A DNA stretch of 64,000 nucleotides. Origin: Natribaculum luteum. Lineage in GTDB: Archaea > Halobacteriota > Halobacteria > Halobacteriales > Natrialbaceae. The stretch lies in contig NZ_CP095398.1 of assembly GCF_023008545.1 (NCBI RefSeq), forward strand, positions 744,001 to 808,000, written 5' to 3'. Position 1 is the first letter of the stretch; every line of letters starts with the position of its first letter. Position numbers and translations under genes: made by a program. Positions 4,768-36,784 of the stretch are shown piece by piece. Under the pieces are notes generated by a model. That model did not search any database, was not told the DNA's origin, and saw nothing but the letters and a program-made list of their open reading frames with translations.

Positions 4768-6204
4768 CGGTACTTCCCGAAAGTCGCTTCGTGAACTGTG
4801 CTGAGTCATTGACGAACAGAGCGAATGCCGGTGTGGTAACCGAGTGAACAGGAAATAGAATCCACGGATGAGGAGAAGTGAAGTAAGAAGGCTGAGATAC
4901 GCTGTTCTAGGCGAATGCTGTTGCTCACCAAGAGCTTGCCCAAGGCCGCGGGCTGGCGTCAGCCCGTGGCCGGCGCGTATGCTTCTGGCACACCTGTTCC
5001 GTTCATCTCGATCTCCCAACTCCGCTCTAGCTCTTCCTCTAATGCATGTCTGATCCAGTCAGAGAAGGTCTTGAACGTGAATTCCTCGGGCAGGTCGCGC
5101 CCGCCCCGACGCGGGCGGGCGACGACCGCCCACCGAAGCACGAGCCAGAGGTTCTCCAGCAAGAACCCGACCAAGACGAATGCAAAGCGGACGACTGGAT
5201 CTTGTGTCGTCGTTACCACTCGTGCTTGGCGAAACACCGGTAGCTTGTTTCAATCGCTGACCGTTTCCGGTACAGCTGTTCGACCTGCTTGGGCGTGCGA
5301 TCAGCCAGATCGCACGCCACATACCCTCGCACAACCTCCCCGCTTTTCCCTCGATCTCCAGCGTGATAGGACACAGCGACCGCGAGCGGGAATTCTAGTT
5401 CCCGCTCGCGGTCTTTGTACATCCGATAGGTTGTCATGTACGAACGGTGCGTGTCCAACTTTTCCTTCATGCGTTCTCCCTTCTTTTGGACGGGAACGAC
5501 AGTCGCAGCAATCTCCTGAGAACGACGCAGAATACGTTCGTTGTAGAAGCCACGATCAGCCAACAGAAGCTCTATGTCGAAGGGATAGGCTTCGACGCGG
5601 TCGAGGACGCGCTCGACCGCGTCGGCCTCTTTCTCATCGCTACGGACGTACGTCATCGCCAACGTCACTGGCTTTCCGTTCGAGACGAGATACGCCGTGC
5701 AGTACCGGTGGCACGTCGTTGTTCCGTCTTTCGCGTGCATGCGGCAGAGTTCACCTTCTTCATCGGCGTACGTTCCGTGGTAGGGATTATCGACGAAGTC
5801 AATGGAGACGATCCTCGACCGATTAGGGTCGAGGATCGTCATCGCTACCTCCCTGAGAAGGCGGTTAGCAACCTGCTCAAGCCACTCTCGGTTGAGCGTA
5901 TGGAGCCAGTCCATGACAGTATCGTCACAGACAGCGTTGTCATTGTCCTTGCACGTCTCCCAGATGGAGGTCTGATTGACTGCTGCAAGAATGACGACCG
6001 CCCAGATATCGCCGGGATCGAGGGGCGAGCCCTCGATCCCTGGCAAAGGGAGCTGGCAAATGACGTCTTCCGCTAGATCTTTCACGTCTGAGTCTGAAAG
6101 AACACCGTCTGGTTGAGGGACGCTGAACACATTCACTCAGCCAGACATCTTCCTCATGAGACCAACGCTTTAGCTTCAGCTCTCACACCAGTTGGGAAGT
6201 ACCG
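4768..6204 (-). mobile_element. ISH3-family insertion sequence, copy 1, inside a CRISPR repeat
   Basis: The element is 1437 bp with terminal inverted repeats starting CGGTACTTCCC at both ends. The 5-bp target duplication GTTCT is visible at 4763-4767 and 6205-6209. Removing the element and one GTTCT restores a full CRISPR repeat. A near-identical 1438-bp copy is at 43748-45185. Confidence 0.95.
4959..6136 (-). pseudogene. ISH3-family transposase, frameshifted
   Basis: The 5' part (6136-5213) matches the intact 392-residue transposase at 43939-45117 almost residue for residue, including VSIDFVDNPYHG (first Asp), LLADRGFYNE (second Asp) and SAIETSYR (Glu). A one-base deletion near 5230 (gaaacaccgg here, gaaatacacgg in the intact copy) shifts the frame just after SYR. 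The remaining ~90 residues continue in another frame to 4959. This copy is probably inactive unless helped in trans by the second copy. Confidence 0.93.
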
Positions 6205-9200
6205 GTTCTGGGTTTTCGGTGTCCTGCGACTAGTCCCTGATGTATCGACGAACACCGCACGATCAGTTTCAATCCCGTTCTGGGTTTTCGGTGTCCTGTG
6301 ACACTCGCAGTATCAGGAACTCGTGGACTACCTCGTGTTTCAATCCCGTTCTGGGTTTTCGGTGTCCTGTGACCCGTTGCGCTCGGCGTACCGTTGCGAT
6401 CGGAGTCGGTGTTTCAATCCCGTTCTGGGTTTTCGGTGTCCTGTGACAATGCACCACCGACAGCACTTGTTTTGATGCCACTGAAGTTTCAATCCCGTTC
6501 TGGGTTTTCGGTGTCCTGTGACAGCGAGACCAGGACCGCGAGTGCCGCGGCCGCGATGTTTCAATCCCGTTCTGGGTTTTCGGTGTCCTGTGACAATGCA
6601 CCACCGACAGCACTTGTTTTGATGCCACTGAAGTTTCAATCCCGTTCTGGGTTTTCGGTGTCCTGTGACAGCGAGACCAGGACCGCGAGTGCCGCGGCCG
6701 CGATGTTTCAATCCCGTTCTGGGTTTTCGGTGTCCTGTGACACGGCCGTCGATCATCGTGTGATCAACTCGCCACTCGTGTTTCAATCCCGTTCTGGGTT
6801 TTCGGTGTCCTGTGACTCTCCGTTTCCTCACGGACGTACCGATTCGTGACGGTTTCAATCCCGTTCTGGGTTTTCGGTGTCCTGTGACCGTGTTCGTCAG
6901 ACTGTTCGAAGACGATCCCACTCCGTTTCAATCCCGTTCTGGGTTTTCGGTGTCCTGTGACAACCCGACACACGACCCGAGGACGAGTGCAAGCAAGGTT
7001 TCAATCCCGTTCTGGGTTTTCGGTGTCCTGTGACAATCCGACACACGACCCGAGGACGAGTGCAAGCAAGGTTTCAATCCCGTTCTGGGTTTTCGGTGTC
7101 CTGTGACAGCCAGGGCCGGCACTCTGGAGAATCCCTCCAAAGAGTTTCAATCCCGTTCTGGGTTTTCGGTGTCCTGTGACAACGCGAGTTCGTCGATCCC
7201 ACGCTCGAACAGCGGTTGTTTCAATCCCGTTCTGGGTTTTCGGTGTCCTGTGACGGCCGAGACTGGCGACGACGGCTGGAAGTTCGTGAGTTTCAATCCC
7301 GTTCTGGGTTTTCGGTGTCCTGTGACCATCATAGTAGTCGGCCAGTTTCGCGATGCCACGCATGTTTCAATCCCGTTCTGGGTTTTCGGTGTCCTGTGAC
7401 CCGGCCGCGAGCGGATTTCCTCGGCGATATCTTTCAGGTTTCAATCCCGTTCTGGGTTTTCGGTGTCCTGTGACGATCGCGTTGTCGACGACACTCGTCA
7501 CGCTGGGCTGTTTCAATCCCGTTCTGGGTTTTCGGTGTCCTGTGACGCTCGAGTGTTTCGAGGACCGCGCTGTGTTTCGTCGGTTTCAATCCCGTTCTGG
7601 GTTTTCGGTGTCCTGTGACGCTCGAGTGTTTCGAGGACCGCGCTGTGTTTCGTCGGTTTCAATCCCGTTCTGGGTTTTCGGTGTCCTGTGACCAGTTTCT
7701 TCCCCTCGAGATTTACGTCACCCCACCGAGTTTCAATCCCGTTCTGGGTTTTCGGTGTCCTGTGACCCTGTCGGGCCTCCTCGTTGGGGTCGTGGTTGAT
7801 CAAGTTTCAATCCCGTTCTGGGTTTTCGGTGTCCTGTGACATGCTCATGGCAGATGGACACGACCCGCGCGACGTGTTTCAATCCCGTTCTGGGTTTTCG
7901 GTGTCCTGTGACCTACACGAATCCGTCGCCACACCACCACGCCAACCGGGTTTCAATCCCGTTCTGGGTTTTCGGTGTCCTGTGACAGCCATGGGCCGGT
8001 CCCCATCGATTCTTTCCACTTAGTTTCAATCCCGTTCTGGGTTTTCGGTGTCCTGTGACCGGTGGCACCGACCGATGAGCACCAACACCCACCGTTTCAA
8101 TCCCGTTCTGGGTTTTCGGTGTCCTGTGACGTGACCGCGCGGAAATCGGCCCCGGCCTGTCTTGCGAGTTTCAATCCCGTTCTGGGTTTTCGGTGTCCTG
8201 TGACTCGGCGACCTCCAGACGCTCCGTGATGCCCAGGATGAGTTTCAATCCCGTTCTGGGTTTTCGGTGTCCTGTGACGGCACAAGCCCGCGGCACCCTG
8301 GCGGCGTACTCTGCATGTTTCAATCCCGTTCTGGGTTTTCGGTGTCCTGTGACCATCGCCACGGAGCGGTCGGCCCATAGGACGTAGTGTTTCAATCCCG
8401 TTCTGGGTTTTCGGTGTCCTGTGACACCTCGTAGAAGTCGACAGTAACATCGTCGCCCTGGTTTCAATCCCGTTCTGGGTTTTCGGTGTCCTGTGACAGC
8501 GGCTCCGGCACCAGGATCGACCGCCCCCATCGGTTTCAATCCCGTTCTGGGTTTTCGGTGTCCTGTGACCTCTTGTGCGTCTTGTTCTGAAATCAGTTCG
8601 ACTACCTGTTTCAATCCCGTTCTGGGTTTTCGGTGTCCTGTGACACACCGACGGGAAAGGGAGTACGACCGCTGGCCTCACGTTTCAATCCCGTTCTGGG
8701 TTTTCGGTGTCCTGTGACCCGAACCAGTGACCGCCGCGGTCGAGATCGACGGCGAGTTTCAATCCCGTTCTGGGTTTTCGGTGTCCTGTGACACTCAGAC
8801 CCATCCGAAGCATCATACGCCGCAATAAGTTTCAATCCCGTTCTGGGTTTTCGGTGTCCTGTGACCTGTCGGTTCCTCGAGATCGAGAGACGGGTTTTCT
8901 TCGTTTCAATCCCGTTCTGGGTTTTCGGTGTCCTGTGACCGCACGTATCCTCCGGAAAGGAACGGCAGGAAGATGCGTTTCAATCCCGTTCTGGGTTTTC
9001 GGTGTCCTGTGACACTTCGACGTCCGCGGCATCGAGTCCTGACGTTGCGTTTCAATCCCGTTCTGGGTTTTCGGTGTCCTGTGACATCGTCGTCGCCACC
9101 GCCGTTCAGATACTCGAGGATGTTTCAATCCCGTTCTGGGTTTTCGGTGTCCTGTGACATGACAACATGAGCGATTACATCCGATCGTCTCTGTTTCAAT

Positions 9201-9302
9201 CCCGTTCTGGGTTTTCGGTGTCCTGTGACAGCCTGTCCAGCCGAGTTCGTCCCGACGATGTTCCAGTTTCAATCCCGTTCTGGGTTTTCGGTGTCCTGTG
9301 AC

Positions 9303-9412
9303 AGGGGGTCGAGATACGTCTATCGAAGCTAAAAACGTTGCTCCTCGAGCGAAAATCAGTTCGTCGTTCGTGGACTGGGGCTATCCACGGCGTTTAAGAG
9401 AGTCGATGAAGA
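9303..9412 (-). promoter_or_regulatory. CRISPR leader of array 1
   Basis: A 110-bp AT-richer stretch between the first repeat and the csa3-like stop codon. Read leftward it contains the inverted repeat CGTGGA-N9-TCCACG (9369-9389), a TATA-like AACGTTTTTAG, and TCTCGACCCCCT touching the first repeat. Leader 2 (19948-20064) has the same inverted repeat with the same 66-nt spacing to its first repeat, the same AACGTTT box and the same CGACCCCCT end. This sets the array's direction. Confidence 0.85.
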
Positions 9413-10066
9413 TTAGCAGTTGCCATCAATACGCAGGTACAACTCGCCGGCGAACGTCAGCTCGACGACCTTCGTCCGCCCGTGTTTTTCGGTCTGAACG
9501 AGTCCCTCCTCCTCAAGGAGATTCACGTGACGCGTGATCGAACTCTTCGACCGGTCCAGTTCCTCCGTGAGCGTCGGGGTCGAGACGCGATCAACGTGAT
9601 CCGCAACCGCTTCGAGCGTCGAAACGACGTTCTCTGGGACTGAAGCCGTTATCATAGGTGACTCGAGTTCGCGAACTGCGCCGTCGATATCGCTAAACGT
9701 CACCATCGTGGCGATCGCCTCGCTATGAACCAGCGCGGCCGTTGTCAGCGGGACAAGAATATCACGGGCTCCTCCTCCAAGGTTGACGATGACGTCCCCG
9801 TCAGCACCGATGATAATCTCACTGCATTCGAGGACGGCTGCCGCGTAGTCGTCGTAAGTGATCCACTCGACCGTGAGCGTCACATCAGGCTCGATCTCGT
9901 TTAGGAGTCGCTCGACATCTCCAATCGCTTCCGTCGCGCGCTGCCCGTCGGATTCCTCATGTGGACGGAGAAGTCGGATTTCATCTCCCGAATCGAGCCC
10001 TCGACTGAGAACGGGTCGAACGACGCTGGTGGAGTTATAGCCGATCGGGGAGACGTACGTACGCAT
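9413..10066 (-). CDS. csa3: Csa3-like CARF-HTH transcriptional regulator
   Basis: A 217-residue protein from ATG 10066 (MRTYVSPIGY); upstream in-frame ATG 10078 and TTG 10081 are alternatives. Residues ~1-125 form a Rossmann-like CARF domain with LGGGARDILVPL, the glycine-rich ligand loop typical of Csa3. Residues ~135-217 form a winged helix (TPTLTEELDRSKSSITRHVNLLEEEGLV). Csa3 proteins in Sulfolobales regulate adaptation genes and leader transcription, probably with a cyclic oligonucleotide ligand. Here the gene is divergent from cas6 and ends right at leader 1. It could bind the shared leader inverted repeat; that is inference. Confidence 0.85.
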   Translation of the reverse strand: MRTYVSPIGYNSTSVVRPVLSRGLDSGDEIRLLRPHEESDGQRATEAIGDVERLLNEIEPDVTLTVEWITYDDYAAAVLECSEIIIGADGDVIVNLGGGARDILVPLTTAALVHSEAIATMVTFSDIDGAVRELESPMITASVPENVVSTLEAVADHVDRVSTPTLTEELDRSKSSITRHVNLLEEEGLVQTEKHGRTKVVELTFAGELYLRIDGNC

Positions 10067-10212
10067 ATTCTCCCCCATCAATTACGATCAGGAAAAATCC
10101 ATCGTTGCACGTAGGTGAAATCGACAGGCGACAATTGCTGTTCTGCGCAACCGTTTCAAATTCCCGATAGCTTTATTTGATCTCTGTCCGACGATTAGTG
10201 CGTGCGGATTAC
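10067..10212 (+). promoter_or_regulatory. Divergent promoter region between csa3 and the cas operon
   Basis: This 146-bp gap separates the two starts. A TATA-like TTTATTTG at 10171-10178 lies about 35 nt before the cas6 ATG at 10213, a plausible archaeal core promoter for the rightward cas operon. No clear palindromic operator is visible. Confidence 0.5.
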
Positions 10213-11073
10213 ATGGGACAAGAAAAAGTTTCGCGTGCTAGATGTGTTACGCTCACCGTTCGACCGACCGAGCGGTTTCCAGTCCCGAAATCAGACGGCT
10301 ACCCCCTCTACGGGGCACTCCTCAGCGTTCTCGACGATGCCGACGAATCGGTGAGTCAGCGCGTCCACGATTCCCCACTCGGGAGTCTACACAACAGTGG
10401 GCTCCAGGGCGCTTTCGGCGAGAGCGATCGCCGACATCACAAGTCGGTTCGTCCGGACGAGACATACGAGATCACGCTCGGGATCGTCGATCCCGACGAC
10501 GAGGCGGTGTTCCAAGCGCTCGTCAAAGAACTCGTCCTCGAGGGGTCGACGATCGAGCTGACCAACGGCACGCTCCGGGTGGAATCGTTCGAAAGTGAAA
10601 ACGCGAGCCACGAGGAGTTACTCGAGCGCGCGAGCGAGGCTGACGATCCCGCGGTCACGATCCGGTTCCAGACGGCGACCTGCCTCGAGGAAGCCGACGA
10701 GGTGACGACGATGTTCCCTCATCGGGTTGCGGTGTTCCGGTCGCTGTTGACTAAGTGGAACCGGACTGCACCCGAAGAACTGGAACTCGAGCTAACGCGA
10801 GACGCATTGCTCTCATCGGTAATCGAGAAACCCAACGCGCGTGCGTACAGGACACATAGCGTATTGGTGAATCGAGTCAAGAACGACGACGGTGAGACGC
10901 GAAACCTGTTCAAGCAGGGATTCAGCGGCGAGTGCACCTATGCATTCAAGGATGCGAGCGAGTCCGTCCAGAACGCCGTCGTAGCACTCGCGCTGTTCGG
11001 TGGGTATAGTGGCGTCGGGAGCGCCGTTGCTCGAGGGTGCGGGAACATATATGTAGAGGTAACCGATGGATGA
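10213..11073 (+). CDS. cas6: Cas6 crRNA-processing endoribonuclease
   Basis: A 286-residue protein from ATG 10213 (MGQEKVSRAR); an upstream in-frame TTG at 10177 would add 12 residues but sits in the promoter region. The sequence fits the two-ferredoxin-fold RAMP plan of Cas6, ending with the glycine-rich loop GGYSGVGSAVARGCGN near the C-terminus. Cas6 cuts the repeat RNA 8 nt upstream of the spacer, leaving the AUUGAAAC handle predicted from both arrays. It is first in the cas operon and its stop overlaps the cas10d start by 4 nt (ATGA, 11070-11073). I cannot assign the catalytic histidine with certainty. Confidence 0.88.
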   Translation: MGQEKVSRARCVTLTVRPTERFPVPKSDGYPLYGALLSVLDDADESVSQRVHDSPLGSLHNSGLQGAFGESDRRHHKSVRPDETYEITLGIVDPDDEAVFQALVKELVLEGSTIELTNGTLRVESFESENASHEELLERASEADDPAVTIRFQTATCLEEADEVTTMFPHRVAVFRSLLTKWNRTAPEELELELTRDALLSSVIEKPNARAYRTHSVLVNRVKNDDGETRNLFKQGFSGECTYAFKDASESVQNAVVALALFGGYSGVGSAVARGCGNIYVEVTDG

Positions 11074-14000
11074 ATAATCAAGACAACAATCAACAATATA
11101 GCCTATATGATTTCGGTGGAGGACCAGCGGAGACAGAGACAGACGAGAACAATGGTGAGTCGACATCAGGCGTTGAATCGTTCTCACCAGAGCTCTTTGA
11201 AGACCCAGACGGAGCATTTGCTCCAGATGAAACAGAGACAGATGACCAAGCTGGTCTCAATGAGGTGTTTAAAGAATATCTATCGGAAATAGATGGCAAA
11301 CTCGTTGAGGCGGGCTGGCTGTTCCTTCCGAACAAGAGTATTGAATACGGGAAGGTCGACCAATCGATGCTCAACCACACGCGGAATCTCGTTTTCTTCC
11401 TTCATCGTTTGGCAACGCAGGCCGAAGCAGCAGGATTGCCACCAATTTCACCAAACGAACTCCGTGATTTAATTGCGCTCGCAGTTATCCATGATTATCA
11501 CAAACTTCGAGAGGAAGACGAAAACCGAGCAAAGAGGTTTGATATAACTCTCGCAGAATTAGAGCCCTTCATTGATGAAATCCGCCTTCAGGAATTCAGT
11601 AAAGATCCGTCTGTTGAAAACTCGGAGCTAACAATACGTGATTTTCGGTCGTGTGCTGTTGATCACCATGCAACCGACAATGCGAAGTCGACAAACGTCA
11701 CCCTCAAATGGAAAGACTACCGCTCACTCATCCGTCTCGCGGACGGCATGGCGTCGTCGACAACGCCCGAAATGGCGGCTAATTCACGGGCACAAGAACA
11801 GTTTAGTAAGTGCTTCCCAGGAACGGATGTTGAATTGTCATATCACCATCTTGATCACGTTAGTGGGGTTTTTACTAATTTGCTCAATGCAGCAATAAGT
11901 GAATCTCTTGAGGAGACATTTGAGTACACACTACTCACAATCTATCAAGATGGGTGTGTCTATCTTTCACCAACAGAGTCATCCCCAGAGCCTACTGATA
12001 AGTTCGTAGATAATGTATATGAGAAATTAAGTCAGAACATAAGCGATTCGCATCCGATATATAGTGATACCGACTTGCTTGCGGAAGATATCGGAACAGT
12101 AAATCTCGGACATTACAGCCTTAATGCGTCCGAGTTCTTTTATGCAGGTTCTGAGAGAGTAACGCGGGCAATTGTGACAAAAGGAGTGACAGATGGTTCT
12201 GCTGATGAGGAACCGACCGATTCGGCTTTGGAATCAATGGAACTTCTAGAAGAGGATCTGGGACGTGAATTGTATAAAACAAGTCAATTATATGGAATGG
12301 CTCGCTTTGTGAGTACACTTCGTCGAGGAATCTTACCTGATTTCCTGAACAATACAGGGATGACATCTGACGAAGGTATACGTACTACTGGACGTGTGTT
12401 AGGTCTATCAGATCGTACTGCGAACGAGCTTATATCGCTACCTATGGAATCAAAAGAGAGGTTGGTAAGCGGAAATAAATGGGAGTTCTCATATGGCTTT
12501 GCTCAAGCGTTGCTTGAAAAGTATGGTGAGGGGCCAAAGATTCGAGAGGCGAAATCTGAGATCATCCAAGATATAGAATCTGGTCTAGACTCACTCACCG
12601 ATAACGGCGATTGGAGAGAGCTCCTCAGAGAAAGTTACTCTGGTGGCTATCGTACAGAGGTTGTTTTATTTATAAAGAAACATCTTCGAATCGGGTCTAA
12701 TTCACAACAAGAGACCGGTGCTCTTACCGACACATATCATCAGTACGCAAAAACGTCTCGACGCGGACGGATATGTTCGCTCTGCTCGGGTGGACTGAGT
12801 GAATCACATAATCTTGGAGATATGCAGCCATCTAGTGATGTTACGATAGTTCGTGGGGGTTTCACAAACAGAGACCCGATTGGAAGTGGTAAACGGGATA
12901 ATAGAGTAATATGTATTCCCTGCCAAATTGAACTATCGTTGCGAGGTGCGGCTAGTAGTAATCGATACAATGGCCGACTATTCATCCATCTCGCACCGGA
13001 TTATTTCTATACTCCATTTGCATGGAGACTCTTCAGTCGAGTTACCAACCGGTTTACTGGGGAAAGTCGTGTTCGGATAGGTAGACTGGCTGAGGAAGTC
13101 TTTGATATTGATGAATTAGATGCATTCAATGAGGTGATGACAGAACTCACACAATCCGATGGAGGCCGACCGATGCTTGATTCGCTGTCTGGTGGGTTTG
13201 ATCAAGAAGCCCAATATGGTGCTCAAGTTGTCGGCTATTTCAAGGACCTCTACTCAGATGGAGGAAATGATACGGAGTTCCAATTCTTTGGAGCATTCCT
13301 CGCACTTACTATCAGTGCTTACACTGGTATGAGAGTACATCTCAGTTCGTCTCCAATCCCAGAAATGAGGTCCCGAGATTTCCAAGAGTTCGTTAACATA
13401 GGAGGGGGCTTCACGCAGGTGTCGAATTTCTATGGTGAGTCGGTTCCACTCTCAACCTTGCAGAATCGTCTTCAAGCGGCATCATCACTGATCAAATTAG
13501 GATATGCCCTACAGGGAGATTCTCGGAAAGATTCATTGTTCGCAAAATATCTTCGTGTAACGCGTAATGAACTGCTCCCTGGGTCGCACCTGCTCAAGCG
13601 TGCCGCCCAGTCCTCAAGTGAGGGGCCGTATATTCCTGCCCTGATGAGGTACGCAGTCACGCTTGACGAACAGGCCAGTATCAAACAATTCGAACCAAAC
13701 ATGAGTGACACACCACACAGCCGCATTACGAAGCTCGCGGATCTCGCATACGACGCCATTCGTCCTGCAAGCGGACATGGGCGCAAACCCCACCGCGTCG
13801 AACGCGTGTTCCGTGAGAGTGTCAAGGCGGTCTCGAAAACAGGCGACCAGTTGAGCCGAGACGATTACGTGATGCTCGTCTCGGGACGATTGCAAAAAAT
13901 GCTCGACAGACAAGCTGGAGACTCGGTGTATCCAGTGAGTGCAGAGGACTCAAATGCGGGCACACCACTCCAGGACCGTATCGAGGAGTATGCTGGCTTC

Positions 14001-14180
14001 TTCATAGATGAAATACTCTACGGGATTGCCAACGGTCGCCCATCACAGCTGAAACGACTCGAAAACAACCTTTCGGACGGCTTTTTCGGTGCGACACTCC
14101 GTGCAGAATCGGAGTACTACGATGCACGTGACGAGGAAAGCCAAGACGACGATGCAGACAACAACCGGAGCAATCAATGA
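11070..14180 (+). CDS. cas10d: Cas10d, large subunit of type I-D Cascade with HD nuclease domain
   Basis: A 1036-residue protein from ATG 11070 (MNNQDNNQQY), overlapping cas6 by 4 nt. Residues ~110-215 form an HD phosphohydrolase domain: HD at 141-142 (AVIHDYHK) and DHH at 198-200. This is the Cas3''-type nuclease moved onto the large subunit, the hallmark of type I-D. A zinc-ribbon pair follows: CSLC at 569-572 and CIPC at 615-618. No GGDD cyclase motif was seen, as expected for Cas10d. The C-terminal ~160 residues look alpha-helical and may be made separately as Cas11d from an internal start. The body of the gene is more AT-rich than its last 600 bp and than cas1/cas2. Confidence 0.93.
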   Translation: MNNQDNNQQYSLYDFGGGPAETETDENNGESTSGVESFSPELFEDPDGAFAPDETETDDQAGLNEVFKEYLSEIDGKLVEAGWLFLPNKSIEYGKVDQSMLNHTRNLVFFLHRLATQAEAAGLPPISPNELRDLIALAVIHDYHKLREEDENRAKRFDITLAELEPFIDEIRLQEFSKDPSVENSELTIRDFRSCAVDHHATDNAKSTNVTLKWKDYRSLIRLADGMASSTTPEMAANSRAQEQFSKCFPGTDVELSYHHLDHVSGVFTNLLNAAISESLEETFEYTLLTIYQDGCVYLSPTESSPEPTDKFVDNVYEKLSQNISDSHPIYSDTDLLAEDIGTVNLGHYSLNASEFFYAGSERVTRAIVTKGVTDGSADEEPTDSALESMELLEEDLGRELYKTSQLYGMARFVSTLRRGILPDFLNNTGMTSDEGIRTTGRVLGLSDRTANELISLPMESKERLVSGNKWEFSYGFAQALLEKYGEGPKIREAKSEIIQDIESGLDSLTDNGDWRELLRESYSGGYRTEVVLFIKKHLRIGSNSQQETGALTDTYHQYAKTSRRGRICSLCSGGLSESHNLGDMQPSSDVTIVRGGFTNRDPIGSGKRDNRVICIPCQIELSLRGAASSNRYNGRLFIHLAPDYFYTPFAWRLFSRVTNRFTGESRVRIGRLAEEVFDIDELDAFNEVMTELTQSDGGRPMLDSLSGGFDQEAQYGAQVVGYFKDLYSDGGNDTEFQFFGAFLALTISAYTGMRVHLSSSPIPEMRSRDFQEFVNIGGGFTQVSNFYGESVPLSTLQNRLQAASSLIKLGYALQGDSRKDSLFAKYLRVTRNELLPGSHLLKRAAQSSSEGPYIPALMRYAVTLDEQASIKQFEPNMSDTPHSRITKLADLAYDAIRPASGHGRKPHRVERVFRESVKAVSKTGDQLSRDDYVMLVSGRLQKMLDRQAGDSVYPVSAEDSNAGTPLQDRIEEYAGFFIDEILYGIANGRPSQLKRLENNLSDGFFGATLRAESEYYDARDEESQDDDADNNRSNQ
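13701..14180 (+). CDS. Possible internally initiated Cas11d small subunit within cas10d
   Basis: In type I-D systems a small subunit is known to be translated from inside cas10d. Here an in-frame ATG at 13701 (cas10d residue 878, MSDTPHSRITK) would yield 159 residues of charged helical sequence, close to a small-subunit size. No strong Shine-Dalgarno sequence precedes it (ttcgaaccaaac). ATG 13646 (MRYAVTLDEQ) is an alternative. This is inference from family knowledge; the sequence only allows it. Confidence 0.35.
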   Translation: MSDTPHSRITKLADLAYDAIRPASGHGRKPHRVERVFRESVKAVSKTGDQLSRDDYVMLVSGRLQKMLDRQAGDSVYPVSAEDSNAGTPLQDRIEEYAGFFIDEILYGIANGRPSQLKRLENNLSDGFFGATLRAESEYYDARDEESQDDDADNNRSNQ

Positions 14181-15166
14181 TCTCAGATACACTCACCACA
14201 GCACTGGAGAACGGTACAGTTTCGATGGACGGAATGACGAACACCCCTGGAACAAACTATACGACAATTCTCACTCTCCGTGAGCTAGAGAGCCACGCGG
14301 TCTTCACGACGAACGGACAAGACGCGGATATTGCGTCGCTGTCCGTCGTTGGTGAGAATTCGAGTATCGAGTATTCGCCAGGGATCATGTTCATGCGAAA
14401 ACAGACGGGAAGCGACCGTCGGATGGGGAAAGCAATCCAGCGAGAGCTACTGGAGTATGACCGCCCAGATTCGATGGAAGTCAATGATATGAATCCTCAG
14501 TCGGTTGAATCCGCACTCTACGGGAGTGCAGCCAGCGGTGACGACGATGTCGACATTGGCGTCACCTCTCGTGTGATGTATGACACGGCGTTTACCGTTC
14601 GTGACGCCAGTGCGTGTATCGATGAGAAGTTCCAGAACGCGCCCGGAGAGGGATACGCAAAAGGATCACGTTCAACGATCCGTGAGCCAGACTTCTTCGA
14701 ACCAGGGACACTGTTCCCGTGTGCGATCACCCTTCGAGATGCGACTCCGGCTGAAGTCGCGTTTGTCGTTGCAATCACGAAACGAAACAAGCGGTACGGA
14801 GCTGCAACAACGCGACTTGGTCGTGTGAAAAACCACATTCTCGGAGTGTACACCGGCTCTGAGGAAGGACCCTCTAACCGAGAATTGACGGCCAACGTAA
14901 TCACATCGTTTGCCGCAGACGACGAACAGACGCTCAGTGATGTAGTTCAGGCACCAGCACTCGACGTTGTACAGGCATGTGAGTACGTCAAAGATGCCTA
15001 CGATGCAGCCTGCGAGAACAAGATTGCACAAGAACCGGTTGATGAGGAGATAGTTAACGAGTTGCTTTCGCTGGCGGATGACGAGGAACTACAGGCGATT
15101 CTTGAAGCACAACGGCCACGCTCAGAGGCGTTTATCGATGGCGCAATCGACACTGACGGAAACTAA
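14177..15166 (+). CDS. csc2: Csc2, Cas7-type backbone subunit of type I-D Cascade
   Basis: A 329-residue protein with ATGA overlap to cas10d (14177-14180). It fits the Cas7/Csc2 family: early TTILTLRELESHAVF, a central FFEPGTLFPCAITLRDATP, and TTRLGRVKNHILGVY, the region that ends the RAMP fold. Csc2 proteins polymerise along the crRNA to form the Cascade backbone. Length is normal for the family. The operon position between Cas10d and Csc1 is the canonical I-D order. Confidence 0.9.
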   Translation: MISDTLTTALENGTVSMDGMTNTPGTNYTTILTLRELESHAVFTTNGQDADIASLSVVGENSSIEYSPGIMFMRKQTGSDRRMGKAIQRELLEYDRPDSMEVNDMNPQSVESALYGSAASGDDDVDIGVTSRVMYDTAFTVRDASACIDEKFQNAPGEGYAKGSRSTIREPDFFEPGTLFPCAITLRDATPAEVAFVVAITKRNKRYGAATTRLGRVKNHILGVYTGSEEGPSNRELTANVITSFAADDEQTLSDVVQAPALDVVQACEYVKDAYDAACENKIAQEPVDEEIVNELLSLADDEELQAILEAQRPRSEAFIDGAIDTDGN

Positions 15167-15174
15167 AAAGGCCC

Positions 15175-15921
15175 ATGAAAGTCATCGAAGCAACGCTCAC
15201 CACACACGGAAAAGTCGGCTTCGCCTCACGTGAAGTTGGCCGAATGACGGATACGGACTCCTGTATCCTGAATACGGCACTCCACTACGCACTCGGTCTT
15301 GCCAGTGGTCGTTATGTCGATGTTAGTCATCAACCAACATACATTGAAGACACCGCTGAGATAGTAAATGACGTATACGTTACCCCTGCGGCACCTGCTC
15401 GTGTCGAGCGAAATGAGTCGATAAAAACCGAGTATATCACGACGAATCGAAATGCTCGGAGCGACACCTACGCGACACCAAATTATCCTGCGACGGATGA
15501 TCCAACTGGGAAATCCAGCAAGAACCTTCCGACGTTCGAACGGGAGCGGGCACTCGCCCCTGAAAACGTGTTTCGGTTCTATGTGTTCCCGTACGGTCGG
15601 GATGCAACCGAGGTCGCATCGCAACTTCCATCGTACATTCGTCTGGGAAAAAAGCGTGGGAAAGGGCATGTTAGCTACCGAATCGTCAACGGAGTCCGTC
15701 GTTCCGGAGAGTTCACGCTAGGGCATCCACTCAGTGTCTACGATCACGAAACAACACCTATCGGTGGTGTTGTAATGAAACAGATGCAGCCGACGCCAGT
15801 CTGGTTCGAAGCCGAGTTCGATACAGAGTATTATGCGATCGAATCACCCTTCCGAAATCAGTCACGTGTCTGCTATCCTGCTGATGCAAAATTCTTAGCT
15901 ACAAAACGGAACGATGTCTAA
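15175..15921 (+). CDS. csc1: Csc1, Cas5-type subunit of type I-D Cascade
   Basis: A 248-residue protein starting 8 nt after csc2 (ATG 15175, preceded by aaaagg). It fits the Cas5/Csc1 family: an N-terminal beta strand MKVIEATLTTHGKVGFASRE, then LPSYIRLGKKRGKGHVSYR, which resembles the RAMP glycine/lysine-rich loop. Csc1 caps the 5' handle end of the crRNA in the Cascade complex. Its end overlaps the cas3 start by 8 nt (15914-15921), pointing to translational coupling. Confidence 0.88.
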   Translation: MKVIEATLTTHGKVGFASREVGRMTDTDSCILNTALHYALGLASGRYVDVSHQPTYIEDTAEIVNDVYVTPAAPARVERNESIKTEYITTNRNARSDTYATPNYPATDDPTGKSSKNLPTFERERALAPENVFRFYVFPYGRDATEVASQLPSYIRLGKKRGKGHVSYRIVNGVRRSGEFTLGHPLSVYDHETTPIGGVVMKQMQPTPVWFEAEFDTEYYAIESPFRNQSRVCYPADAKFLATKRNDV

Positions 15922-18067
15922 TCACGATCGAGTTTCGTTTCAGCTTGCAGGGCTCGGTCTGCGAATGTACCCCGGAGAGTACCCTGTAGATGATGTAACT
16001 CCGCATAAACATCAGTGGGCACTTTACGATGCACTCACAGATTGTCTTCCTGGATTGTTTGTTGACGATGCCCCAACTGGAGCCGGTAAGACGCTTGCAT
16101 GGCTTGCTCCCGTCGTAGCCGAAGGACTTCAGACAGTAGCAATATATCCAACAAATGCACTTATTGAAGACCAGGTACGGAACATCAACGAGAAGCTTGA
16201 CGATGTCGACGGGGGAGATGATGTACGTCTTCTTGCTGTGACTAGCGAAACACTCCAGAACGAGCACGCCGAACAGTTCCCATCGGCTAACTCAAATGGG
16301 GAACGGCTTCGAAAATTGCTCACAGTGGCGTTCAATAGTCAAGAGACCGTTATTCTTCTCACAAATCCGGATATATTTGTCCTTCTTCGCCGGGAGATAT
16401 ATCGAGAGAGAATTGACGCAATCAATCGATTTGAGGTAGCGGTCATTGATGAGTTCCATCGGGCAACACGGAAGGAGCGAAATACGATGCTCTTTCTACT
16501 CGATGAAATGTATGAGACTAATGAAGCAATCTGTCGGCTCAAACATCTTGTATTCCTCAGCGCAACTCCAGAAAAAGAACTCGAACGCCAGTTTGAGGAG
16601 GCAATGGCCGCGCCGTACTATCGTGTTAGTGAGTTAGAATGGCGACAAACACCACATCCAGCCGTTGGCACTGATGAGGAGTCAGTGATTGCATTTGCTC
16701 CTGACGAACTCCCGCCAGACTACCGAGCAGTGCTACCACCAGTCGACCTGACAATCACACCTGCGCCGACATTTGAGACTGCCACAGAGATTCTCAATTC
16801 GGAAGATGTGTTGCATGATCGATTGAAGAACGGTAGGACGGTCATGATGATTGACGGGGTCCATGAAGTCGATCGCGTTTATCATTCGTTGTCTCAATCA
16901 GGTCTTGAAGGAACTGTTCGAATCGATGGCTTTCACCGTGACAACGTGCGTGAAAAGATCAATTTATTCGAGACCTTAGTAAGTAATTCTGCTGTTGAGG
17001 TTGGTATCGACTTTGACACAGAGCAAATCCTATTCTCTGGTCACGACGCGGCGAGTTTTTTCCAACGACTTGGCCGGCTCAGAACCCGCTCTGATCGATC
17101 TACAGCGTATGGATATGTACCACCATATCTATTCAGTACACTTGAATCAATGGCCGACAGATATACTGGCCAATGGGTTGATCGAGCAACATTCGAAGAA
17201 CTTGTTAGTTCAGAGTATGTTGACTCATCAACACCGGAATCGTTCGACTGGCGATACTCGGCTGTTGAAGCCTATGACCACATTGAAAAACAAGCAGAGG
17301 GTGCACCATCAGACGACCAACCAACAATACGAGAGACAGGCTGGAAACGTATTGAACGTCATTTCTTCCACAATCATGAGAACGGACTTACCGAGGCTGA
17401 CCTAAAACGATTGCATGATATTGCAGGCTCACGGCTTTTAAATACGCTCCAGACCTATCGCGGGGACAGCATACAGACAGTAGTCTACAATAGTCAGTCA
17501 CAGACACTCCAGACATACAGTATTCCATACCTACTCCGTTATGGTAATGTCTCGTTCCATTCAAAGACTGAGTTTCTCGCCCTCATTCCAGAACACTTGC
17601 ATCACCACGTTTCACGGCTTGAACCATACAGTAGTGGCTACTGTCTCTATCAAGGCGGTTATAAAAACGAAGAAGATACCACGGAGAAAGGCCAGTCAAC
17701 TGGGCGGTTAGTCACCTACAAAGCAACTGGTGAATTGTACTCGCTATTAAGTAATGTCTCTCGGGATATTCGGACACCGAAAGTCTGCACTGGACTCGAG
17801 ATCGAGACAGAGCCGAGCGTCAGAGGTCTCGATTTATTGAAAGAAGATCTCTCGGAGACGGAGGTTCTCTGTTATCCGTTAGAGGGCCACGTTTCCCAAA
17901 TACGGAACCAATATTCACTTGATCCCTTTAAATTCATATATCCACTATACTATACAGAGAGCAATGCAGCGGTCGCATTCAGTCATGATGCGCTTTATTT
18001 ACATTGCCACGTCCAAGATCGGATAGAGGCTGAATCAAACACGATTGACGAGGTGCTTGATTTTTGA
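15914..18067 (+). CDS. cas3: Cas3' helicase of type I-D (no HD domain)
   Basis: A 717-residue superfamily 2 helicase. Walker A is APTGAGKTLAW (Lys near 59), motif II is DEFHR (179-183), motif III is SATPEKE (from 216), and motif VI lies around FFQRLGRLRTRSDRS. There is no HD nuclease domain, which fits I-D, where that domain is on Cas10d. Cas3' unwinds target DNA after Cascade binding. The C-terminal ~250 residues are unlike canonical Cas3 but in line with I-D proteins. It overlaps cas4 by 4 nt (TTGA, 18064-18067). Confidence 0.92.
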   Translation: MSNHDRVSFQLAGLGLRMYPGEYPVDDVTPHKHQWALYDALTDCLPGLFVDDAPTGAGKTLAWLAPVVAEGLQTVAIYPTNALIEDQVRNINEKLDDVDGGDDVRLLAVTSETLQNEHAEQFPSANSNGERLRKLLTVAFNSQETVILLTNPDIFVLLRREIYRERIDAINRFEVAVIDEFHRATRKERNTMLFLLDEMYETNEAICRLKHLVFLSATPEKELERQFEEAMAAPYYRVSELEWRQTPHPAVGTDEESVIAFAPDELPPDYRAVLPPVDLTITPAPTFETATEILNSEDVLHDRLKNGRTVMMIDGVHEVDRVYHSLSQSGLEGTVRIDGFHRDNVREKINLFETLVSNSAVEVGIDFDTEQILFSGHDAASFFQRLGRLRTRSDRSTAYGYVPPYLFSTLESMADRYTGQWVDRATFEELVSSEYVDSSTPESFDWRYSAVEAYDHIEKQAEGAPSDDQPTIRETGWKRIERHFFHNHENGLTEADLKRLHDIAGSRLLNTLQTYRGDSIQTVVYNSQSQTLQTYSIPYLLRYGNVSFHSKTEFLALIPEHLHHHVSRLEPYSSGYCLYQGGYKNEEDTTEKGQSTGRLVTYKATGELYSLLSNVSRDIRTPKVCTGLEIETEPSVRGLDLLKEDLSETEVLCYPLEGHVSQIRNQYSLDPFKFIYPLYYTESNAAVAFSHDALYLHCHVQDRIEAESNTIDEVLDF

Positions 18068-18681
18068 GCACACCACAGACGATCGGACAGCGTGATACAC
18101 TCGTACCGGTGAGCGCGCTAAATGAGTTCGTCTACTGTCCACGTCGGTTTTATTATCAGCACTATCATGACGAGATGGGGACCCCATATGAGCTTGTAGA
18201 TGGCCGATCAAAACACGAAAAACAATCACAGAGGGGCGGATGGATCACGGAGCGATATTTCAGAGCAGCCGAACTTAGTCTGCATGGAAAGATTGATTTG
18301 ATTGAATCGGACGGGGATTTACTCACACCTGTTGAGCGAAAACGTGCTGAGAGTGGACAGTATTTTCCAAGTGATGAGATCCAGCTTGCGGGGTACTGTA
18401 TGCTACTTGAATCTGCAATTGAAGAGCCGGTTAATGTCGGCTATATTTATTTGTATAAAACTGACGAGCGGTATGCGATCCAAATTACGGAAAGTCACCG
18501 GGAGACGGTACGGAAGATCATCGATAAGATCCAATCACTGTCCGTCGACTCCATCCCTCCACTCACAGATAATCCTAAGAAATGCGAAGCGTGCTCGGCT
18601 CGCGAATACTGCATGCCTGCTGAAACAGCCCGTCTCGAGCCGGAGAAAGCTCGCGGAACGGGCTGGGAGGGGCAAATATGA
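18064..18681 (+). CDS. cas4: Cas4 PD-(D/E)xK nuclease with Fe-S cluster
   Basis: A 205-residue protein. The best start is TTG at 18064, overlapping the cas3 stop by 4 nt; no ATG lies near. The four cluster cysteines are visible: C25 (VYCPRRFYYQ) and C174, C177, C183 (CEACSAREYC). The nuclease core is GKIDLIESDGDLL then VERKR, the Asp and E-x-K of the PD-(D/E)xK fold. Cas4 trims prespacers and helps select those with a PAM before Cas1-Cas2 integration. Its stop overlaps cas1 by 4 nt (18678-18681). Confidence 0.93.
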   Translation: MSTPQTIGQRDTLVPVSALNEFVYCPRRFYYQHYHDEMGTPYELVDGRSKHEKQSQRGGWITERYFRAAELSLHGKIDLIESDGDLLTPVERKRAESGQYFPSDEIQLAGYCMLLESAIEEPVNVGYIYLYKTDERYAIQITESHRETVRKIIDKIQSLSVDSIPPLTDNPKKCEACSAREYCMPAETARLEPEKARGTGWEGQI

Positions 18682-19673
18682 AGGCACCGGAGGGGATGTT
18701 CGACGAATCGGTCATCTACGTAACTAAACAGGGAGCGCAGGTGCAGGTCGACGGTGGTCGGATCGTGATCTGGGACGTCGACGGAGACGAGGGCGAACTG
18801 GCCTCGTTCCCAATCGAGAAGCTCGACACGATCAACGTCTTCGGTGGCGTCAACTTCAGCACACCGTTCGTTGCTCGAGCGAACGAACACGGGATTGTCC
18901 TCAACTATTTCACCCAGCACGGCAAGTACCGCGGGAGTTTTGTTCCCGAGAAGAACACGATCGCCGAGGTGCGACGAGCGCAGTACGATCTCTCCAGAGA
19001 GAGGGAACTCGATATCGCCCGGCAGATGATCGCCGGGAAGATCCGTAACGCCCGGACTCTTCTCTCCCGGAAGGGCGTTCGTGGAACGGATGTCCTGAAA
19101 GACCTCGGTGTCCGCACGGAGTCCGATGCGACGAAAGACGACCTCCGAGGTACGGAAGGCGAGGCCGCAGAGCGGTATTTCCAGCTTCTCGATGAGACAC
19201 TCGCCGACGGCTGGATGTTCGAGAAGCGCACGAAACGACCACCCGAAGACCACATCAACTCGCTGCTGTCGCTGACCTATGTCTTTATGAAAAACGAGGT
19301 CCTGTCAGCGCTTCGCCAGTACAATCTCGACCCGTTTCTCGGCGTGTTGCACGCTGACCGTCACGGTCGCCCATCGCTTGCGCTCGATCTTCAAGAAGAG
19401 TTCCGTCCGATATTCTGTGACGCTTTCGTTATACGACTTGTCAACCGTGGCGTGGTCAATCATGACGATTTCCGCAAGGACAACAGGTTGAGCGACGGCG
19501 CTTTCAAAACATATCTCGAGAAGTTCGAAGATTACATGAACGAGGAGCTGACTCATCCTCATTTCGAGTACACAGTCACTCGCCGGAAGGCAGTCAGACA
19601 GCAGGCGATTCTCCTCCGAAAAGCGATCACCGACGAGCTCGACGAGTACCACCCTCTGACGTTCGCGAGGTAG
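18678..19673 (+). CDS. cas1: Cas1 spacer integrase
   Basis: A 331-residue protein of normal Cas1 length. The metal-binding residues are present: E160 in RGTEGEAAERYF, H225 in LGVLH, and D237/E240 in LDLQEEFRP. The N-terminal beta domain includes KLDTINVFGGVNFSTPF. With Cas2 it integrates prespacers at the leader-repeat junction; two leaders with matching sequence flank this operon. The ATG overlaps cas4 by 4 nt. From here the gene is more GC-rich than cas10d-cas3, which may reflect modular exchange of the adaptation genes. Confidence 0.96.
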   Translation: MKAPEGMFDESVIYVTKQGAQVQVDGGRIVIWDVDGDEGELASFPIEKLDTINVFGGVNFSTPFVARANEHGIVLNYFTQHGKYRGSFVPEKNTIAEVRRAQYDLSRERELDIARQMIAGKIRNARTLLSRKGVRGTDVLKDLGVRTESDATKDDLRGTEGEAAERYFQLLDETLADGWMFEKRTKRPPEDHINSLLSLTYVFMKNEVLSALRQYNLDPFLGVLHADRHGRPSLALDLQEEFRPIFCDAFVIRLVNRGVVNHDDFRKDNRLSDGAFKTYLEKFEDYMNEELTHPHFEYTVTRRKAVRQQAILLRKAITDELDEYHPLTFAR

Positions 19674-19674
19674 C

Positions 19675-19947
19675 ATGCGTCTCGCAATCGCCTACGACGT
19701 CAGTGACGATGCGAACCGACGGCGAGTGTATCGAACTCTCGAGCGGTATGGTGCGTGGAAACAGTACAGCGTCTTCGAGCTCGAGATCTCGAAAACTGAG
19801 CGCGTGGAGCTTGAAGACGAACTCGAGTCACACATCGACCCGTCTGATGGAGACCGAATCCGGATATATTACCTCTGTTCCGGGTGTCAGGAAGCGACGA
19901 CTGATCTTGGTGCCGAGCAGCCCGACGAGTCTTCGAACGTAATCTGA
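19675..19947 (+). CDS. cas2: Cas2 adaptation subunit
   Basis: A 90-residue protein with the Cas2 start MRLAIAYDVSDDANRRRVYR, the conserved early Asp, and YGAWKQYSVFELEI on the second strand. Cas2 is a ferredoxin-fold dimer that bridges two Cas1 dimers in the integrase complex. It starts 1 nt after the cas1 stop and is the last gene of the operon; leader 2 begins right after it. Confidence 0.95.
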   Translation: MRLAIAYDVSDDANRRRVYRTLERYGAWKQYSVFELEISKTERVELEDELESHIDPSDGDRIRIYYLCSGCQEATTDLGAEQPDESSNVI

Positions 19948-20064
19948 GGGGCAGTCTTCATGGACCTTTATTAAGCTCGTGGATAGCCCCAGTCCACGAA
20001 CAACGAGTCCCGAATAGTGTGCTGAGAAACGTTTATCTGAGTTCTACACGAATATCGACCCCCT
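19948..20064 (+). promoter_or_regulatory. CRISPR leader of array 2
   Basis: A 117-bp stretch between cas2 and the first repeat. It holds TTTATTAAG, the inverted repeat CGTGGA-N9-TCCACG at 19978-19998, a TATA-like AACGTTTATC about 30 nt before the array, and ATCGACCCCCT joining the first repeat. Leader 1 has these parts in the opposite orientation, with the inverted repeat at the identical 66-nt distance. Array 2 is therefore transcribed rightward. Confidence 0.85.
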
Positions 20065-23000
20065 GTCGCAGTGGACAGAAAACCCAGCACGGGATTGAAA
20101 CTGAACGCGAGTATCGACAGCAGGAGCGTGACGACTGTCGCAGTGGACAGAAAACCCAGCACGGGATTGAAACTTCCCGTCGATGTACAAGCGGTCGCCG
20201 TCCTCGAGGTCGCAGTGGACAGAAAACCCAGCACGGGATTGAAACCTTGTCGTCCATCATAACGACCATTGCTGGCGTCATACCGTCGCAGTGGACAGAA
20301 AACCCAGCACGGGATTGAAACAGATAGACGACAGCAGTATCGATAGCCGCACTCATCTGTCGCAGTGGACAGAAAACCCAGCACGGGATTGAAACGCGGG
20401 AGTGGCTTCGGACGGTGCTGACTTTAATAATGTCGCAGTGGACAGAAAACCCAGCACGGGATTGAAACATAGATGACCTGTTTTCGATACTCAGCCATCT
20501 CCCGGTCGCAGTGGACAGAAAACCCAGCACGGGATTGAAACCGGGAAAGTGGTGTTAGAGAGGCAACTATGCAGGAAAAGGTCGCAGTGGACAGAAAACC
20601 CAGCACGGGATTGAAACACAGTCGGTGACTGATCTGCTGGTTCGTAGTCGTCAGGTCGCAGTGGACAGAAAACCCAGCACGGGATTGAAACAGGGCTCGT
20701 TCATGTGGCTTCCCGACTGGTAGCGTAGACGCTAAGTCGCAGTGGACAGAAAACCCAGCACGGGATTGAAACTCATCTGGACTTCGTCGTGCGTGTAGAC
20801 GTCCGCTGCCTGTCGCAGTGGACAGAAAACCCAGCACGGGATTGAAACTTACTCAGCCCGGTGAGGAACTGCACACGGCAATCAAGTCGCAGTGGACAGA
20901 AAACCCAGCACGGGATTGAAACGGTCTCGCCGACCGGGAGGGTGGTCTGGCCGCCGTGTCGCAGTGGACAGAAAACCCAGCACGGGATTGAAACCGATCT
21001 ACGCCGACGACGCGCCGGTTGCGAGTCCGGTCGCAGTGGACAGAAAACCCAGCACGGGATTGAAACACGGGTCCGGCGATCGCCCAGGACTCCCCCGCAG
21101 GTCGCAGTGGACAGAAAACCCAGCACGGGATTGAAACAGAGCGTCCGACTGCGGACGTCTCGAGCGGACGACGGTCGCAGTGGACAGAAAACCCAGCACG
21201 GGATTGAAACATCTGAAGGTCATTATCACGGCTCAAGACAGTGCGACCGGTCGCAGTGGACAGAAAACCCAGCACGGGATTGAAACGCACCCGAGAGAGT
21301 TCGTTGGCTGTGCGGAGTGTGGCGTCGCAGTGGACAGAAAACCCAGCACGGGATTGAAACATGCTCGTCGGGGAACTGCTCGAGTGTTTCGAGGGTCGCA
21401 GTGGACAGAAAACCCAGCACGGGATTGAAACACACCTACGCCGTCTACAACTCCGCCGACGACTCGTGTCGCAGTGGACAGAAAACCCAGCACGGGATTG
21501 AAACAAACTCGCGGATGTTCCGCTGCAGTGGGTTATCGTCGTCGTCGCAGTGGACAGAAAACCCAGCACGGGATTGAAACATTGGTTCGGTAGGAGTAGA
21601 TGCATCAACAGCAAACCGTCGCAGTGGACAGAAAACCCAGCACGGGATTGAAACGATCTGGCCGCGGGCACAGCTCGCACAGCGCGTGCCGAGTCGCAGT
21701 GGACAGAAAACCCAGCACGGGATTGAAACACACCCGACCTGCGGGTGCCGTCACAGACCAATCTGGTCGCAGTGGACAGAAAACCCAGCACGGGATTGAA
21801 ACCTACCGGTGAGGTACGTCCCGTTGGTCTGGCCGTGTCGCAGTGGACAGAAAACCCAGCACGGGATTGAAACTTCCGATGGATCGCCACCACGATGGGG
21901 AATCTGCTGTGTCGCAGTGGACAGAAAACCCAGCACGGGATTGAAACGTGTGGACGAAAGTCGACCCGGAGCGTGGGGACGAAGTCGCAGTGGACAGAAA
22001 ACCCAGCACGGGATTGAAACCGAAGACGGCTATTTCGAGTTCGACGAAGATCGCTTCGTCGCAGTGGACAGAAAACCCAGCACGGGATTGAAACCGGGCT
22101 GCGCGTCCGATCTCGGTCAGGGACGGCACGTCGCAGTGGACAGAAAACCCAGCACGGGATTGAAACGAACGGGATCGTTTATCGGGACGCAAGGGTCCGC
22201 AGGTCGCAGTGGACAGAAAACCCAGCACGGGATTGAAACTGTCCATCGGAATCTCGGTCGGTGTCGTGTCGTGTCGCAGTGGACAGAAAACCCAGCACGG
22301 GATTGAAACTGCGAGGCCAGGTGACACAACTCTCGGAACCGAAGCGTCGCAGTGGACAGAAAACCCAGCACGGGATTGAAACTCGATCGGTCCGGCACAC
22401 CCTCTTTCGTGAGCAAGTCGCAGTGGACAGAAAACCCAGCACGGGATTGAAACTGTCCATCGGAATCTCGGTCGGTGTCGTGTCGTGTCGCAGTGGACAG
22501 AAAACCCAGCACGGGATTGAAACTGCGAGGCCAGGTGACACAACTCTCGGAACCGAAGCGTCGCAGTGGACAGAAAACCCAGCACGGGATTGAAACTCGA
22601 TCGGTCCGGCACACCCTCTTTCGTGAGCAAGTCGCAGTGGACAGAAAACCCAGCACGGGATTGAAACACCCCGACGACGTGCCAGTGGACGCCGAGGCCC
22701 AGGAGGTCGCAGTGGACAGAAAACCCAGCACGGGATTGAAACTGCCACCCGACAAGGCCGAAGAACTCGGCCTTCTCGTCGCAGTGGACAGAAAACCCAG
22801 CACGGGATTGAAACTAGGGTTCGCGGTCGTACTCAGCGGGGGCGAACGCGTCGCAGTGGACAGAAAACCCAGCACGGGATTGAAACAGACCGAATCTATG
22901 AATATCGGTCGCGGGTTCGTGCTCGGTCGCAGTGGACAGAAAACCCAGCACGGGATTGAAACAGATCCAAGCTCGGTCCAAAGAACGAGTCGACCGCGTC

Positions 23001-36747: not shown

Positions 36748-36784
36748 GTTGCGACGGACAGAAAACCCAGCATAGGAGTGAAAA
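36748..36784 (+). repeat. Solitary degenerate CRISPR repeat
   Basis: Positions 36748-36784 match the array 2 repeat at 29 of 37 bases by hand alignment, including an unbroken core GGACAGAAAACCCAGCA. No second repeat lies within a spacer's distance on either side and no leader is visible. It sits just upstream of the broken tumE-like gene. Confidence 0.7.

Follow-up and report, generated by a model that had tools for sequence, protein, structure and literature searches.

A window of 64,000 nucleotides (nt) from the Natribaculum luteum contig NZ_CP095398.1, to which all positions below refer, holds two arrays of clustered regularly interspaced short palindromic repeats (CRISPR). The leader ends of both arrays adjoin an operon of CRISPR-associated (cas) genes at 10177-19947, which sits between arrays 1 and 2, and one spacer of each array ends in the same 17 bases. 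Very probably, these two spacers stem from two prespacers that were taken at separate times from the same stretch of about 53 bp of one mobile element, one from each strand, and stored one per array. The arrays, their leaders and the spacers concerned are:

6194..9302, minus strand: CRISPR array 1, 43 repeats and 42 spacers, 39 of them unique; repeat GTCACAGGACACCGAAAACCCAGAACGGGATTGAAAC
9303..9400, minus strand: leader of array 1, identified by alignment; it has CGTGGATAGCCCCAGTCCACGAAC and TCGACCCCCT in common with the leader of array 2
19970..20064, plus strand: leader of array 2, identified by alignment to the leader of array 1
20065..24797, plus strand: CRISPR array 2, 65 repeats and 64 spacers, 60 of them unique; repeat GTCGCAGTGGACAGAAAACCCAGCACGGGATTGAAAC
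7547..7582, minus strand: spacer A1_24, with the same sequence as A1_23; on the plus strand it begins with the 17 bases GCTCGAGTGTTTCGAGG
7620..7655, minus strand: spacer A1_23, the 23rd from the leader, a tandem copy of A1_24
21361..21394, plus strand: spacer A2_18, at place 18 counted from the leader; it ends with the 17 bases GCTCGAGTGTTTCGAGG

The 17-mer GCTCGAGTGTTTCGAGG is found at 7547-7563, 7620-7636 and 21378-21394. These three exact matches are the only ones in the window and also the only ones in the whole 4.61 Mb assembly. In the sense of the CRISPR RNAs (crRNAs), the 17-mer forms the 3' end of A2_18, and its reverse complement the 3' end of A1_23 and A1_24. Since it spans the entire leader-distal end of both spacers, all bases of the overlap agree, and A2_18 and A1_23/A1_24 form a mismatch-free end-to-end dovetail on opposite strands. 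With lengths of 36 nt for A1_23 and A1_24 and 34 nt for A2_18, the union amounts to 53 bp (36 + 34 - 17). The original prediction had given these 17 shared end bases and the 53 bp union, and both proved exact. The pair is the sole overlap between the arrays; in a comparison of all pairs in both orientations, the next longest string common to non-duplicate spacers measured 12 nt. Because each array holds one spacer and the two represent opposite strands of the same locus, at least two acquisition events are required. A1_23 is separated from its leader by 22 spacers, A2_18 by 17.

The tandem copy at 7620-7655 is not regarded as a further acquisition. Multi-unit block copies are present in both arrays (A1_36-37 equals A1_38-39, and A2_30-32 equals A2_33-35). 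As blocks of two and three units are implausible as fresh acquisitions, A1_23/A1_24 is most simply explained as a duplicated repeat-spacer unit.

A chance match would need no common locus: the two spacers would have unrelated targets that both happen to contain a codon string frequent in the GC-rich genes of haloarchaea. GCTCGAG/TTCGAGG-like strings are indeed frequent in the GC-rich coding DNA of the host, and the exact 17-mer occurs in seven unrelated viral contigs. The host genome contains 22 more sites that resemble GCTCGAGTGTTTCGAGG with one or two mismatches, so that the 17-mer, taken by itself, carries less weight than its length implies. Host DNA was taken as the null because fragments of GCTCGAGTGTTTCGAGG are common there. 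Each simulated set consisted of 99 random pieces, matched to the spacers in length and taken from a 400 kb portion of the genome. Any 17-mer was held in common in 1.8% of 3,000 sets, and a perfect dovetail of at least 17 nt arose in 91 of 20,000 sets (0.45%); the flat tail of the distribution suggests that many of these simulated dovetails stem from repeated sequence in the 400 kb sample. An empirical control drew on 33 haloarchaeal genomes, including that of N. luteum, with 1,803 unique spacers between 25 and 60 nt long. For the 32 related genomes, array loci were chosen from among the listed matches, a part of the matching genomes, and the arrays were called type I-D-like by repeat similarity alone; full-length near-copies were set aside in the pair counts. 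Exact dovetails of at least 17 nt were found in 2 of 62,050 within-genome pairs, namely A1_23/A2_18 and a 21-nt pair in genome G340, against none of 1,562,453 between-genome pairs (one-sided Fisher P = 0.0015). At a threshold of 13 nt the counts were three within and one between genomes (P = 0.0002). Dovetails of at least 16 nt with up to two mismatches numbered 3 within and 16 between genomes, which indicates that inexact overlaps are mostly due to chance; an inexact overlap of A2_38 and A2_43 in the N. luteum genome falls into this class and is not claimed. Given a match that ends exactly at both spacer ends and is free of mismatches, a rare dovetail in the simulations and none between genomes, coincidence is a highly improbable origin of the pair.

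The protospacer adjacent motif (PAM) was read from the flanks of other spacers' protospacers. Candidates were obtained by comparing natural arrays with the 125 genomes of the family and selecting short high-identity rows inside spacers; 21 sites were fetched, 8 of which (L068-L074, L082) contained no spacer match of at least 72%. Spacers of the N. luteum arrays yielded nine distinct matches with at least 80% identity over the full spacer. GCG stood immediately 5' of the match in all six with at least 85% identity and in seven of the nine, that is for A2_12 (94%), A2_25 (92%), A1_28 (91%), A2_59 (89%), A1_16 (86%), A2_02 (86%) and A1_36 (80%), at sites L085-L091. The matches of A1_08 (84%) and A1_25 (83%) lacked it. 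Against a background GCG frequency of 3.2%, the probability of seven in nine is about 1e-9. Weaker A1_08 sites (76-78%) had GCG in one of four cases. When spacers of other genomes were added, 10 of 18 distinct sites with at least 80% identity were preceded by GCG and one by GCA; this count excludes ten rows in which array spacers lay beside decayed repeats and seven second copies of sites. Among the additional matches, a spacer of G039 corresponds to the portal gene of Natrialba phage PhiCh1 (L063 3939) with 83% identity and GCG in front. Five of the seven GCG sites of N. luteum spacers lie at PHROG-matched open frames, encoding two DNA methyltransferases, one integrase and two proteins of unknown function.

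These protospacers show that both arrays have 5'-GCG as their motif, a by-product of the analysis that is directly testable in a haloarchaeal type I-D system. A GTN motif was ruled out by the GCG flanks. As the motif lies on the same side for both arrays, it follows that they are read in opposite directions and share an adaptation module. The opposite reading directions had been part of the original prediction, and the leaders agree with them as well. Its central claim, that the two spacers address one locus from opposite strands, is likewise backed by the simulations, the comparison of 33 genomes and the orientation of leaders and PAM. For the type I-D system of Haloquadratum walsbyi C23, a GCN-class motif has been described in the sections of the literature available to us (PMC3316494, PMC8482600). 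GCG agrees with this class; in distinction to the published haloarchaeal GCN, all seven motif sites of N. luteum spacers have G at the third place, too.

The genes between the arrays were assigned by profile comparison:

9413..10081, minus strand: csa3-like CARF/HTH regulator (TIGR01884, E 2.9e-21), divergent from the operon
10177..11073, plus strand: cas6, under the NCBIfam cut-off and over the Pfam cut-off
11037..14180, plus strand: cas10d/csc3, the type I-D signature gene (TIGR03174, E 5.7e-243, 809 bits, cut-off 60)
14177..15166, plus strand: csc2 (cas7d) (TIGR03157, E 2.3e-100, above cut-off)
15175..15921, plus strand: csc1 (cas5d) (TIGR03159, E 4.8e-71, above cut-off)
15914..18067, plus strand: cas3' helicase, type I-D (TIGR03158, E 1e-112)
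18064..18681, plus strand: cas4, profile match
18678..19673, plus strand: cas1d (TIGR04093, E 2.5e-117, above cut-off)
19675..19947, plus strand: cas2, profile match

With cas10d, csc1, csc2, cas3' and cas4-cas1-cas2 all present, the gene content identifies the system as type I-D (Cas10d/Csc3). This assignment is an addition, as no subtype had been given before. Type I-B with a TTC motif was ruled out by the Cas10d/Csc3 profile matches and the GCG protospacer flanks. The same Cas10d/Csc1/Csc2 operon is described for H. walsbyi C23 (PMC3316494, PMC8482600), and the same signature genes, together with spacers of mostly about 35-37 nt, for the type I-D systems of Synechocystis and Microcystis in the part of a review available to us (PMC10212523). 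The PAM of the latter systems is GTN/GTH (PMC10212523), in contrast to the GCG found here.

In the proposed course of events, each prespacer would have used a 5'-GCG at its outer end, so that the predicted layout of the target is GCG-53 bp-CGC. The array 1 copy would later have been duplicated in tandem, and the two crRNAs would bind opposite strands, with their PAM-distal ends overlapping by 17 nt. Both spacers would then originate from one molecule or from close relatives, and their acquisition appears to have been independent rather than primed. One spot of one invader was almost certainly sampled twice, an ordinary trace of repeated immunization. Such a locus, sampled at least two times and stored in both arrays, was recognized here without any known virus, and the 59 bp target can now be searched for in hypersaline viromes.

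The earlier suggestion of a virus or plasmid as invader did not gain support, as the protospacer was absent from every collection searched. BLASTN of the 53 bp union, the check that had been proposed with the original prediction, retrieved from phages only eight chance records (E 0.3-4) and from plasmids 17 records (E 1-4), among them three haloarchaeal ones with 33/53, 32/53 and 27/53 identical bases; neither spacer could be placed in any of the collections searched, so that a placement of the two in unrelated sequences, named with the prediction as its refutation, did not arise. The plasmid collection was queried with the union and its peptide only. Codon-shuffled unions, used as null for partial matches, reach 31-33 in 900 kb, and the phage and plasmid records were therefore rejected as chance. 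This includes a match of pNATPE01 in a PAPS reductase-family gene, which lies in the same frame and is no better than the shuffles. Viral contigs were queried with six patterns. The seven contigs with the exact 17-mer showed no extension into the rest of the union, the degenerate forward frame retrieved one unrelated contig and the degenerate reverse frame none, and exact halves were found in three contigs with 24, 25 and 29 of the 53 bases. Genome contigs returned five bacterial records. In the 125 genomes of the family, A2_18 with up to three mismatches matched its own array only. In the 392 genomes of the order, the degenerate union had no match, and A1_23 preceded by GCG was found in its own arrays only. 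A tblastn search with the reverse-frame peptide of the union gave no match either. Relatives of two targeted genes were sought in the viral contigs; none was found for one gene and one locus for the other, and the viral collection thus seems poor in close haloviruses.

A chromosomal gene of G060 (L080), which we take to be OsmC-like, matched the union in 35 of 53 positions, slightly above the shuffled maxima. The gene at L077, L080 and L084 also resembles A1_08, and the locus had been fetched for the A1_08 match. Since the A1_08 sites there are preceded by TCC, TTT and CCC instead of GCG, the 35/53 match was taken as chance, and the resemblance of the gene to both the union and A1_08 is probably accidental.

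Several of these results weigh against a common origin of the two spacers. A sequence with both halves of the union was not found in phages, plasmids, viral contigs, genome contigs or the genomes of the family and order, and exact matches to parts of the union end without running into the remainder. By codon-usage phase, two of the three parts of the union favour the same frame; the part covered by array 1 only, which with 19 bases holds little information, does not clearly agree. GCTCGAGTGTTTCGAGG itself is composed of strings common in the host. The two spacers might also be attributed to different homologous elements, such as related viruses or paralogous genes, with at least 17 bp in common. 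The protospacers of other spacers differ by 6-20%, and the arrays do sample diverged relatives. Such an origin would still place both spacers at the same locus within a related family, however, and no common gene family matching both halves was found, which leaves it unlikely.

Primed acquisition would account for the same geometry if an imperfect match of the first spacer to its target drew in the adaptation complex, and the second was then taken adjacently on the other strand. Priming has been documented for type I-B in haloarchaea (PMC7694759, in the part available to us), and all three exact within-genome overlaps of at least 13 nt are in opposite-strand orientation. Three of three has, however, a probability of just 0.125 in the absence of a strand bias, it cannot be told which of two spacers in separate arrays came first, and a single overlap does not separate priming from independent sampling. 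Furthermore, a 2023 review states, as far as its available sections go, that data on type I-D priming are lacking (PMC10212523). In a sampling model with a 40 kb element, at least one overlap of at least 12 nt occurred in 5% of trials with 10 spacers and, at the upper end, in 20% with 20 spacers, so that neither priming nor another special mechanism is needed. We consider priming quite unlikely. Of the original wording, "repeated or primed" acquisition, the first part stands with one acquisition per array; the second finds no evidence here.

Repeated sampling of one locus has counterparts in related genomes and in the literature. The three exact within-genome overlaps of at least 13 nt measure 21 nt in G340, 17 nt in G000 (the A1_23/A2_18 pair itself) and 13 nt in G007. 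In G340 (L115), spacers -1_4 and -1_9 of one array overlap by 21 nt on opposite strands. As they overlap at their PAM ends, each holds the flank of the other, and GCG lies directly upstream of one spacer, while for the other it is displaced by 1 nt. Overlapping pairs of this kind let the PAM be read from spacers alone, and one-base PAM slips have been described for type I-D of Synechocystis and Microcystis, too (PMC10212523, sections available). An identical spacer is present in both arrays of G221 (L114), and a spacer with one mismatch in both arrays of G007 (L110). It appears doubtful that haloarchaeal type I-D systems, when they sample a locus again, favour overlaps on opposite strands; such a preference might come about if Cas4-Cas1 could begin processing a fragment with GCG at each end at one end or the other, or through interference-driven (primed) acquisition in type I-D.

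A keyword search of open PMC papers retrieved none that deals with overlapping type I-D spacers. In Sulfolobus solfataricus, many spacers likewise came from overlapping places of one invader, pMGB1; according to the available part of the report, the cells there had been challenged with this known plasmid in the laboratory (PMC4390879), whereas the present case is one natural pair known from its spacers alone. Haloarcula hispanica, also a haloarchaeon, acquired several spacers from one virus by primed adaptation; its system is of a different subtype, type I-B, for which the priming spacer and the dependence on Cas3 were examined experimentally (PMC7694759, as available).

Of the 37 positions of the repeat, 6 differ between the two arrays, and decayed repeats are found at the far ends of both; the leader-distal repeat of array 1 (6194-6230) has nine mismatches. 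Spacers A1_31 and A1_32 (6962-7070) are adjacent copies that differ by one base and represent either a mutated duplicated unit or two variants of one invader. A2_43 (23178-23233) owes its length of 46 nt to GTCGCAGTGG at its end, where the start of the repeat is partly present once more. About 12 kb past array 2, a lone repeat-like sequence (36748-36784) with eight mismatches to the array 2 repeat is perhaps a relic. The layout of two arrays on opposite strands with similar repeats was observed in further haloarchaeal genomes (for example at L105-L107, L110, L111, L114 and L115). On contig C1 of G119, the whole two-array locus is present twice (approximately 549-564 kb and 610-625 kb) with identical scores and a distance of 60.7 kb, either as a large repeat or as an assembly effect.

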